This document shows, piece by piece, positions 61,321-64,000 of a DNA stretch of 64,000 nucleotides. How positions within the stretch are numbered: position 1 is the first letter of the stretch; the number at the start of each line of letters is the position of its first letter. The translations under genes were made by a program, and so were the position numbers. The notes beneath the pieces were generated by a model. It saw nothing but the letters and a program-made list of their open reading frames with translations, did no database searches and was not told the origin of the DNA. The stretch covers positions 2,170,001 to 2,234,000 of the forward strand of contig NZ_CP025198.1 in NCBI RefSeq assembly GCF_003325455.1, written 5' to 3'. The stretch is from Acidipropionibacterium virtanenii (GTDB taxonomy: Bacteria; Actinomycetota; Actinomycetes; Propionibacteriales; Propionibacteriaceae).

Positions 61321-61749
61321 TCAGTCGTCGGTGAAGACCTCCTCATTCATCTCGGCGAAGACCGATTCCTGCTCGGCGGAGTAGCTCTCCCACTCGGCGG
61401 CGTCCCACACCTCGACCCTGGTGATCGCGCCGACCACGACGATGTCCCTGTCGAGCCCGGCATAGCGCCGGAGCATCGGCGGGATCATCACCCTGCCCTG
61501 CTTGTCCGGGGCCGTGTCGCTGGCTCCGGCCGCCAGCATCCGCTGGTAGTCCCGCACCTTCTTCACGCTCACCGCCCCCTTGGCGATCTCCTGGGTCATC
61601 TCCACAAAAGTCGTCGTCGGATAGATCGCCAGGCACCTGTCCTGGCCCCTGGTGATCACCAGGCCCCCGTCCAACCCGTCGCGGAACTTCGCCGGGAGGA
61701 AGAAACGCCCCTTGTCATCGAGCCGAGGAGTGTGTGTACCCAGGAACAC
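61321..61749 (-). CDS. mraZ: Transcriptional regulator MraZ
   Basis: SpoVT/AbrB-type DNA-binding protein that represses or modulates the dcw operon. The 142 residues hold two swapped-hairpin repeats: GTHTPRLDDKGRFFLPAKFRD at the N-terminus (part shown) and SDTAPDKQGRVMIPPMLR near 75. The GTG at 61749 has a GGAGG Shine-Dalgarno at 6 bases. Four candidate operator boxes lie 36-71 bases upstream, so autoregulation is likely. Confidence 0.96.
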   Translation of the reverse strand: MFLGTHTPRLDDKGRFFLPAKFRDGLDGGLVITRGQDRCLAIYPTTTFVEMTQEIAKGAVSVKKVRDYQRMLAAGASDTAPDKQGRVMIPPMLRRYAGLDRDIVVVGAITRVEVWDAAEWESYSAEQESVFAEMNEEVFTDD

Positions 61750-61784
61750 CGGGCACCTCCTGACTCGACCCGAAGGCCGCTTCG

Positions 61785-61820
61785 CTCCACCTGGCCCCAC
61801 CATACTCCACAACGCTCCAC
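61785..61820 (-). promoter_or_regulatory. MraZ box array upstream of mraZ
   Basis: On the minus strand GTGGAG, GTGGAG, GTGGGG and GTGGAG start exactly 10 bases apart (plus positions 61815-61820, 61805-61810, 61795-61800, 61785-61790). Direct GTGG-type repeats at 10-bp spacing are the known MraZ operator layout. Confidence 0.78.
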
Positions 61821-61916
61821 CGACCGGGAGGATCAGGGCGCCACGGGTTGTGCCCCGTGCGAGGACACCCTCCGGAGCACCGCGACCGGCGTGTCGCATC
61901 GGTGGCGGGAGACGGG

Positions 61917-61932
61917 GTGGAGCCGGGTGGAG
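61917..61932 (+). promoter_or_regulatory. Paired MraZ-like boxes facing moxR
   Basis: GTGGAG at 61917-61922 and 61927-61932 repeat at 10 bases on the plus strand, about 130 bases upstream of moxR. They are oriented opposite to the mraZ array. Only two boxes, so weaker evidence. Confidence 0.45.
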
Positions 61933-61978
61933 CGTCGTCGACGCCGACCGTCCGCCCCGCCGGCCTCCCGGGCCCGGG

Positions 61979-61984
61979 TAGGAT
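61979..61984 (+). promoter_or_regulatory. Candidate -10 of the moxR operon
   Basis: TAGGAT is a good -10 hexamer but lacks a clear -35. It is 77 bases upstream of the moxR start and 46 downstream of the paired GTGGAG boxes, in the 312-base mraZ-moxR gap. Confidence 0.35.
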
Positions 61985-62061
61985 CGGCCGGGGCGATCTT
62001 CCCCCGGCCCCTGTTGACCGACGGCCGGACCCCGACCCACAGCACAGGAGGAGAGGACATC

Positions 62062-63015
62062 GTGAGCGACCCAGTCCAGGACGTCGTCGAGGTGATGGAC
62101 CGCGTCCGCGCGGCCGTCTCCAGCGTCATCGAGGGGAAGTCCGATCGCATCGACACGGCCCTGGTGGTGCTGCTGGCCCAAGGCCATCTGCTGCTGGAGG
62201 ACGTGCCGGGGGTGGGCAAGACGATGCTCGCGCGGGCCGTCGCCCGGTCGATCGACTGCACCTCCCGACGGATCCAGTTCACCCCGGATCTGCTGCCCTC
62301 CGACATCACCGGCGTGAGCGTGTTCAACCAGCAGACCCGCCAGTTCGAGTTCAAGCCCGGCGGCATCTTCGCCAACATCGTCGTCGGCGACGAGATCAAT
62401 CGCGCCTCCCCGAAGACGCAGTCGGCCCTGCTGGAGGCGATGGCCGAGCGACAGGTCTCATCCGACGGCGTGACCCACCAGCTCGACGCCCCCTTCATGG
62501 TCGTCGCCACCCAGAACCCCATCGAGATGGAGGGCACCTACCACCTTCCCGAGGCCCAGCGGGACCGGTTCATGGCGCGGATCACCATGGGTTATCCGTC
62601 GCGCGGCTCCGAACTCGACATGCTCGATCATCACGGCGCCGCGAATCCGCTGGACTCATTGCAACCGGTCACCTCCGGGGAGCAGATCAGGAGTCTCATC
62701 ACCACCGTCGGCACGGTCTACGCGGCCCCGGCCGTCAAGGACTACATCGTCGACATCATCGAGGCCACCAGGACGCACGAGGACCTGCGCCTGGGCGCCT
62801 CCCCGCGCGCCAGCCTCCATCTGCTGCGCGCCTCCCGGGCCCGGGCCGCCATGAGCGGACGGGACTACGTGATCCCCGACGACGTCCAGGCCCTCGCGGT
62901 ACCGGTGCTCACCCACCGGCTCATGCCGTCGTCGCGCGCCCAGCTGGACGGCCTCGGGCTGGAGGAGATCGTCTCCTCCATCGTGGAGGCGACCCCGCTT
63001 CCGGAACGGGGCTGA
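62062..63015 (+). CDS. MoxR-type AAA+ ATPase
   Basis: Chaperone-like ATPase acting with von Willebrand or DUF58 partners. The 317-residue protein has Walker A DVPGVGKTMLAR near residue 47, Walker B IVVGDEINRASPKTQ near 110 and sensor 1 VVATQNPIEMEGTY near 150, plus a lid domain. The start is GTG at 62062 with an AGGAGGAG Shine-Dalgarno. It is 4 bases ahead of the DUF58 gene; this pair beside mraZ is recurrent in actinobacteria. Confidence 0.92.
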   Translation: MSDPVQDVVEVMDRVRAAVSSVIEGKSDRIDTALVVLLAQGHLLLEDVPGVGKTMLARAVARSIDCTSRRIQFTPDLLPSDITGVSVFNQQTRQFEFKPGGIFANIVVGDEINRASPKTQSALLEAMAERQVSSDGVTHQLDAPFMVVATQNPIEMEGTYHLPEAQRDRFMARITMGYPSRGSELDMLDHHGAANPLDSLQPVTSGEQIRSLITTVGTVYAAPAVKDYIVDIIEATRTHEDLRLGASPRASLHLLRASRARAAMSGRDYVIPDDVQALAVPVLTHRLMPSSRAQLDGLGLEEIVSSIVEATPLPERG

Positions 63016-63019
63016 CCGG

Positions 63020-64000
63020 GTGCGGTTCTGGCAACACCTCAGCATTCGCGGACGGGTCCTGCTCGCCTGCGGGATCGTGCTCACCGTCATCGCGCTCGGG
63101 GTGGGCCAGCAGGACCTCGCCTGGGTCGGCCTGATCCTCGTCCTGCTCCCCGTGCTCGGGCTGCTGCTGGTGATGTCCACCCGCATGCAGATGGGGTGCG
63201 CGCGGACCGTCCGCCCCTCGCGCTGCACCCTGGGCGAGGAGCTGGAGGTCGTCACCACCCTTGAACGCTCGGCCGGTCTCCCGGTGGGCATCCTCCGCTT
63301 CGAGGAGTCGGTTCCACGGGCTCTCGGGGAGCGGCCCCGGTTCGCGGTCCACACCCTCTCGGGTTCGTGGATCCGTACTGTCCGCTACACCCTCACCGGC
63401 AATGCCCGCGGACGCTACGAGGTGGGCCCGATGCTGGTGCGGGCCTGCGACCCCTTCGGGACAGCCCGCGCCGACCACCGGTTCTCATCCTCCTCCCAGG
63501 TGATGGTGACCCCGAAGGTCTACGCGCTGGGAGCGATCGGCTCCACCTCGGGACCCACCCGAAGCGGTGAGGCGACCCCTGAGCAGGTGGGCTCCCAGGG
63601 GCAGGACGACGTGCTGATCCGCGAGTACCGCCAAGGCGACGACCTGCGCAGGGTCCACTGGCGGTCCACCGCGCACCTCGGCGATCTCATGGTCCGCCGG
63701 GAGGAGCAGTCCTGGGATCCCGCTGTCAGCGTCCTGCTGGACTCCCGTGGCGACCGGCACGCCGGGGCGGGTGCCGAGAGCTCCTTCGAATGGGCGGTCT
63801 CGGCCGCCGCGTCGATCTGCACCCACATGCTGGACAGGGGCTACCGGGTCCGGCTGGCCGATGCCGGTGGACAGATCATGGCCTCTGACGACGTCGACGT
63901 CCCGACCGCACGGGAACATGCGCTGGTGACTCTCACCGATGAGCGGATGGGCGACCAGCAGGATCTGCTGGCCGCGGCCCGGGCCTGCGCGACCGGCCAC
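63020..64000 (+). CDS. DUF58 domain protein, 3' end cut by window edge
   Basis: The 327 visible residues begin with two hydrophobic segments (about 10-50), an extracytoplasmic-like beta region, and the DUF58 signature REYRQGDDLRRVHWRSTA near 205, followed by a von Willebrand-like fold with LLDSRGDR. MoxR-DUF58 pairs often precede a transglutaminase membrane protein, which would lie past the edge. The start is GTG at 63020. Function is unknown. Confidence 0.88.
   Translation, partial: MRFWQHLSIRGRVLLACGIVLTVIALGVGQQDLAWVGLILVLLPVLGLLLVMSTRMQMGCARTVRPSRCTLGEELEVVTTLERSAGLPVGILRFEESVPRALGERPRFAVHTLSGSWIRTVRYTLTGNARGRYEVGPMLVRACDPFGTARADHRFSSSSQVMVTPKVYALGAIGSTSGPTRSGEATPEQVGSQGQDDVLIREYRQGDDLRRVHWRSTAHLGDLMVRREEQSWDPAVSVLLDSRGDRHAGAGAESSFEWAVSAAASICTHMLDRGYRVRLADAGGQIMASDDVDVPTAREHALVTLTDERMGDQQDLLAAARACATGH

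Follow-up and report, generated by a model that had tools for sequence, protein, structure and literature searches.

A candidate auxiliary MraZ operator, inverted and upstream of the mraZ promoter, in Acidipropionibacterium virtanenii and related Actinomycetes

Introduction

When a gap between two divergent genes carries boxes of the same type on both strands, which of the two genes do the boxes on each strand serve? We encountered this question in a 64,000-nucleotide stretch of Acidipropionibacterium virtanenii DNA (NZ_CP025198.1, positions 2,170,001 to 2,234,000; hereafter the window), in which mraZ and moxR diverge from a short gap containing boxes of the MraZ type in both orientations. A first-pass annotation, made from the letters of the window, proposed that MraZ may control not only the dcw cluster but also the divergent MoxR/DUF58 operon, through the boxes that point toward moxR.

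MraZ is a widely conserved bacterial regulator, and in Corynebacterium glutamicum its second target is ftsEX. Its known sites at the mraZ/dcw promoters of E. coli, Burkholderia cenocepacia and the Mollicutes are, like those described here, repeated GTG-containing boxes adjoining the mraZ promoter. The B. cenocepacia site is described as four 7-nt repeats with 3-nt spacers (PMC7761207), and the Mollicutes promoter as carrying direct repeats (PMC8475190). In the latter group the protein is reported to assemble into an octameric toroid, on DNA whose repeats recur every 10 bp (PMC7761207), and solved MraZ structures exist, including five PDB entries of the 9xxx series. Repression by MraZ is reported for E. 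coli and Mycoplasma genitalium, yet the sign of control may differ in M. gallisepticum, where its overexpression was accompanied by more FtsZ (PMC8475190). The C. glutamicum protein is named as an actinobacterial MraZ shown to regulate (PMC7761207) and is among the known systems closest to the present case.

Results

Genomes compared

We compared the locus in 297 genomes, namely a discovery set of 237 and a held-out set of 60 fetched later. From the window's own family (f1), 198 genomes were searched, 190 had mraZ, and 125 were fetched and used; from the neighbouring family (f3), 70 of 90 genomes were fetched for the discovery set (30 as loci and 40 as stretches). Sampling of the class comprised 157 genomes, of which 30 from outside the order were hand-picked for spread over families.

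The mraZ-moxR gap

The gap is 312 bp long and separates the GTG start of mraZ at 61749 (minus strand) from the GTG start of moxR at 62062 (plus strand; Table 1). Beyond mraZ, dcw-like ORFs (named by their own sequence) continue on the same strand, while moxR is followed by a DUF58 gene and then, outside the window, by a TgpA-type transglutaminase gene. The first-pass calls of MraZ, MoxR and DUF58 agreed with the Pfam matches. Next to mraZ, a divergent moxR was present in 260 of the 297 genomes. Past the transglutaminase gene, ORF reading places gcvT-, gcvH- and gcvP-like genes (L212, 1-12001).

At the candidate -10 element of moxR (TAGGAT), the sequence GTAGGATC was kept in five of the seven gaps displayed (L001, L002, L004, L012 and L020) and altered in the other two (L003 and L005). 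By eye, a CGTGAC- or CGTGATC-like element recurs 5' of this candidate -10 in L031, L032, L123 and several of L222-L233, and is possibly where a regulator of moxR itself binds.

Table 1. Features in and around the mraZ-moxR gap (positions in the window)
Feature	Position	Strand	Basis
mraZ CDS, first gene of the dcw cluster	61321..61749	-	translation; Pfam MraZ PF02381, E=1.8e-34
Operator box 4, GTGGAG	61785..61790	-	pattern match
Operator box 3, GTGGGG	61795..61800	-	pattern match
Candidate mraZ -10, TATGGT (TAnnGT), between boxes 2 and 3	61799..61804	-	conservation of TA in the second spacer
Operator box 2, GTGGAG	61805..61810	-	pattern match; anchor box in 229/237 genomes
Operator box 1, GTGGAG	61815..61820	-	pattern match; position conserved in relatives
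Opposite-strand box R1, GTGGAG	61917..61922	+	pattern match
Opposite-strand box R2, GTGGAG (R1-R2 spacer CCGG)	61927..61932	+	pattern match
Candidate moxR -10 element, TAGGAT	61979..61984	+	sequence only
moxR (AAA_3 ATPase), divergent from mraZ	62062..63015	+	Pfam AAA_3, E=5.6e-63
DUF58 gene, extends beyond the window	63020..64000	+	Pfam DUF58, E=6.4e-10

The mraZ operator is interleaved with a putative promoter core

The four GTGG(A/G)G boxes that had been noticed facing mraZ at exact 10-bp steps are indeed present at 61785-61820 on the minus strand. They form an array of GTG-containing repeats with a period of about 10 bp, in three or more copies, located at the putative mraZ promoter. This operator was nearly universal: it could be anchored in 229 of the 237 discovery genomes (the eight with no anchored operator were dropped) and in all 60 held-out genomes, and in f1 at least three of the four boxes were at consensus in 101 of 119 anchored genomes.

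Among the 161 four-box operators of the 297 genomes (four boxes at exact steps, with the spacers left unconstrained), TA opened the second spacer in 158, the first in three and the third in none. In an earlier logo of the -10 region the A of this TA stood at 98%, the T and the GTG of box 3 having been fixed by the alignment pattern. Since the TA begins the second spacer and box 3 supplies a GT, TAnn plus GT can be read as a -10 element of the TAnnGT type. We found TTGAC at an offset of exactly 16 bp upstream of the box 2 start in 50 of 74 anchored f3 genomes, in 8/8 from f2 and f4, in 13/28 from other families, in 57 of the 60 later f3 genomes, and in none of the 119 anchored f1 genomes. From this offset and the position of TAnnGT it follows that boxes 1 and 2 would fill the spacer between -35 and -10, and that boxes 3 and 4 would lie over the start region. 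Promoter occlusion by bound MraZ is the natural reading of such a layout, and it would agree with the repressor role reported for the E. coli and M. genitalium proteins (PMC8475190).

At a distance of 41 bp from where box 2 starts, 34 of the 119 anchored f1 genomes had a fifth box, six neighbouring offsets giving 0-4; in the window this position (61764-61769) reads GTCGAG. In one f1 gap (L196, genome G124) a three-box mraZ operator is duplicated in tandem together with its flanks, and five opposite-strand boxes lie close to moxR.

A box pair of the same type on the other strand

The two GTGGAG boxes that had been noted on the other strand at 10-bp spacing were likewise found, at 61917-61932 on the plus strand. 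They share the hexamer and the 10-bp step of the MraZ operator; the array stops short of three boxes, with two in the window and more in many f3 genomes. From the end of the pair it is 46 bp to the candidate moxR -10 and 129 bp to the start codon of moxR. A pair on the opposite strand is present in the sister species, G001, too, ending 56 bp before its candidate moxR -10, and the two pairs do not align.

The pattern GTGGRGN4GTGGRG matched four times in the 64-kb window, always in the mraZ-moxR gap, the matches being three overlapping minus-strand pairs (from the four operator boxes) and the one plus-strand pair; shuffles of the window gave 0.13 matches on average, and none of 100 reached four. 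The whole genome (3.43 Mb) held six matches, against two for the reversed-pattern control, and four of the six were those in the gap; by ORF reading, the remaining two lay inside a dehydrogenase-like gene and near an ArsR-like/SRPBCC-like gene pair.

The pair is rare in the window's family and common in a neighbouring one

Conservation of the plus-strand pair had been proposed as a check, and within the window's own family it was barely conserved: an opposite-strand pair was present in 5/116 mraZ-moxR gaps (the window species, G001, G070, G093 and G124) and absent from the other 111 and from all nine other f1 genomes. In G070 a further gene-like ORF separates the pair from moxR. From f1 alone the site might have been read as a local oddity, a reading that was overturned when we widened the comparison to the order and class. 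Of 118 f3 genomes in which moxR adjoins mraZ, 74 had opposite-strand pairs, often several, and 44 had none; all three f2 genomes were also without one. Overall, such pairs occurred in 85/134 f3 genomes and 5/125 f1 genomes. The site thus appears dispensable, given its absence from most f1 gaps, from 3/3 f2 genomes and from 44/118 f3 gaps. Most of f1 lacks both the opposite-strand site and a consensus -35, and in the window the upstream array is reduced to one pair.

Spacing between the pair and the mraZ operator

We measured the distance from the nearest opposite-strand pair to the start of operator box 2, which ranged from 87 to 270 bp with a single outlier at 336. In the discovery set these distances were periodic at 11.3 bp when each genome contributed its nearest pair (n=58, R=0.51). 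The same period was obtained when each distance was counted once within a genus (n=47, R=0.44, scan p=0.0024), and when every genus or family group was reduced to a single value (n=21) the mean R was 0.45 (Rayleigh p=0.013). The phase was 10.2 bp in the most sampled genus alone and 9.5 bp in all others alone. No phasing was detected when distances were taken to the mraZ start codon (p=0.89 for 55 non-redundant spacers) or to the moxR start (p=0.59 for the 43 of these with moxR), the latter being taken as the start of the tblastn match rather than a mapped start. A phase arising as a by-product of the array's own 22-23-bp unit was considered and rejected: over 57 pooled unique distances R was 0.145 at 22.6 bp vs 0.443 at 11.3 bp.

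A period of 11.3 bp and a phase of 9.7 bp were fixed as a prediction before 60 further f3 genomes were fetched. Pairs were present in 39 of the 60 (21 had none), with a phase of 9.7 bp, as predicted, and V=0.61, a value that none of 20,000 simulations reached; unique distances (n=26) gave p=5e-5 and non-redundant spacers (n=23) p=0.0006, all 60 genomes belonging to a single genus, g33, from which the discovery set too had drawn more genomes than from any other. Just eight held-out spacers were unlike every discovery spacer, and these gave a phase of 9.7 bp with p=0.096, while 25 tree-based sister contrasts that differ gave p=0.12. The combined non-redundant set (n=44) had R=0.42 at 11.3 bp but peaked at 11.9 bp (R=0.50). 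The relatedness of the sampled genomes therefore weakens the evidence for phase.

The window pair starts 122 bp from box 2, which is 0.7 bp off the 9.7-bp phase derived from the discovery genomes, and the G001 pair, at 180 bp, is 0.8 bp off, both distances being themselves among the discovery values. The G093 pair is 2.1 bp off, and those of G070 and G124 (two of the five f1 pairs) are out of phase. For reference, the helical repeat of bacterial (lac) loops in vivo is given as about 11 bp per turn (PMC8501960).

The pair accompanies mraZ rather than moxR

In 14 f3 genomes of the discovery set, 13 of them from genus g31, moxR did not lie within 1.5 kb 5' of mraZ; a short ORF on the same strand, reading toward mraZ, took its place in nine of the ten such genomes displayed. 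An opposite-strand pair was nonetheless found near mraZ in 11 of these 14. With two later genomes from the held-out set (G332 and G363) the count is 11/16, one of the misses, G363, being uninformative, as its contig gives only 252 bases upstream of mraZ. The pair was thus about as frequent near mraZ without moxR as with it (74/118; Fisher p=0.78).

We sought the moved moxR in 13 f3 genomes and obtained 12 matches at 1e-60 (none in G306). If the pair were an operator of moxR that travels with it, it should accompany these genes, yet the 500 bp upstream of the relocated moxR (61-64% identical) held no 10-bp pair in any of the 12 (p=2e-5 vs 74/118). The moxR genes (64-66% identical) of six genomes of f18, a family with no mraZ hit, were also without the pair (0/6). 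Paralogue-like MoxR hits, 41-45% identical (four in g20 and two in f7), and six second-best moxR copies (L358-L363) were left out of these 12 and six. Since mraZ keeps the pair without moxR, and both relocated moxR and the moxR of mraZ-less genomes are without it, the pair goes with mraZ; the relocations come mostly from one genus (g31) and so represent few independent events, and the association p values are optimistic, as related genomes were treated as independent.

As a separate observation, a search for mraZ in f18 (e.g., G481 and G495; genomes of 6-10 Mb, 100% complete) gave a hit in 0/15 genomes at E 0.001, while mraZ was hit in 142 of the 157 class genomes. The gene may have been lost in the f18 lineage.

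These results bear directly on the proposal that MraZ controls moxR through the plus-strand pair. The proposal was right that the pair is a real, recurrent MraZ-type motif between the two promoters, and a role as operator of the moxR-DUF58-transglutaminase operon, by which MraZ would co-regulate that operon, would suit the pair's orientation toward moxR, its distance, both in the window and in G001, from moxR's candidate -10, and the frequency with which moxR is the divergent neighbour. What the pair follows, however, is mraZ; 111/116 own-family gaps lack it, and helical register is seen relative to the mraZ operator, none being seen relative to the start of moxR. In the f3 discovery genomes, moreover, its distance to moxR had a standard deviation of 81 bp, against 44 bp for its distance to the mraZ operator. 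We therefore regard MraZ control of moxR as not the best-supported role of the pair, and its being a dedicated moxR operator as unlikely, although some MraZ influence on moxR is possible given how closely the pair precedes the candidate moxR promoter.

A reading in which the pair serves both promoters draws on the same geometry: with the array lying between them, a single MraZ ring, or a loop, within the common control region could silence or tune dcw and moxR together. The distance to moxR is not conserved, though, and the array is missing from most of f1 even where both genes remain divergent, which makes such joint control distinctly improbable.

Step and letter order in the opposite-strand arrays

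Across the 237 discovery genomes we counted 76 opposite-strand GTGGRG pairs at step 10, in 59 genomes. Steps 11, 12 and 13 gave 24, 18 and 12 pairs, steps 22 and 23, which are the array's own spacing, gave 27 and 23, and the remaining steps from 8 to 30 gave 0-4. Permuted hexamers gave 0-15 in the same genomes, with the exception of the overlapping frame GGTGGR (31). The 60 later genomes were similar, with 53 pairs at step 10 and 32 at step 11. In 114 f1 gaps there were six pairs at step 10, other steps from 8 to 21 giving 0-2 and permuted hexamers at most two. CGAA was the top spacer both in opposite-strand pairs (22) and between operator boxes 3 and 4 (31). No TAnnGT was seen by eye inside the opposite-strand arrays displayed, and we set aside the idea that the pair is the core promoter of a third transcript.

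Might another protein read GTGG(A/G)G at these arrays? Their steps of 10-13 and 22-23 bp, compared with the strict 10 of the operator, and the commonness of GTGGGG-GTGGGG pairs (25 genome counts) would suit such a protein. Against it, the hexamer, the favoured 10-bp step and the favoured spacers all match the mraZ operator, and the arrays go with mraZ, none being found at moxR in the six mraZ-less genomes, so that a second reader of the motif seems to us highly unlikely.

Chance in G-rich intergenic DNA, which the 75.5% GC of the gap and the rarity of pairs in f1 might suggest, is a scarcely credible source of the plus-strand pair, which arose in just 12 cases when the 241-bp gap 5' of the operator was dinucleotide-shuffled 20,000 times (27 cases for a 300-bp G001 stretch, likewise shuffled 20,000 times) and has a counterpart in the sister species, and for the opposite-strand site class as a whole it is largely refuted by the step and letter-order controls.

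Discussion

The reading that we favour, with modest confidence, is that the mraZ/dcw promoter has in the plus-strand pair an auxiliary MraZ operator, inverted and set upstream, which perhaps acts via a small DNA loop. A ring-shaped MraZ oligomer would repress its own promoter by covering the four 10-bp-spaced boxes, two of which would sit between -35 and -10, with the -10 abutting box 3 and boxes 3 and 4 over the start region. The upstream inverted array would offer a second docking place for the same ring on the same face of the helix, and docking at both arrays would most likely close a small DNA loop of roughly 90-270 bp, thereby strengthening or tuning repression of the dcw promoter. What the sequences show is where the boxes lie, their enrichment, their association with mraZ rather than with moxR and the spacing statistic; binding of the pair by MraZ, formation of a loop and repression as the effect are inferred.

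Besides the MraZ of C. glutamicum, two kinds of known system come close to this arrangement. MraZ has an AbrB-like fold, whereas the protein of lac/gal-type loops is a helix-turn-helix tetramer. The lac and gal repression loops with an auxiliary operator resemble the present case in that the same motif occurs at the promoter and at a remote site, and, for lac loops in vivo, in distances reported to be phased to the helix near 11 bp (PMC8501960); they differ in that here there are multi-box arrays and a ring protein, and in that the loop is predicted from sequence. As for the known MraZ boxes, those of B. cenocepacia and E. coli are described as lying downstream of the -10 (PMC7761207), while the boxes here would interleave with the -35 and -10, and a second, inverted array stands roughly 90-270 bp upstream. 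In the titles and abstract openings among the matches listed, a literature in which subscription journals are thinly covered, we found neither a second MraZ array nor a precedent for the opposite orientation.

More broadly, and tentatively, the dcw promoter might be held across several actinobacterial families by a helically phased loop, with one MraZ ring on both arrays; on present evidence we would rate this below an even prospect. If true, such a loop would explain why MraZ is a ring and why the divergent neighbour shares the loop. A remote, inverted and putatively phased second array also makes the looping model testable with simple spacing mutants. Finally, the locus carries a warning for the reading of divergent gaps, namely that a box need not belong to the gene at which it points.
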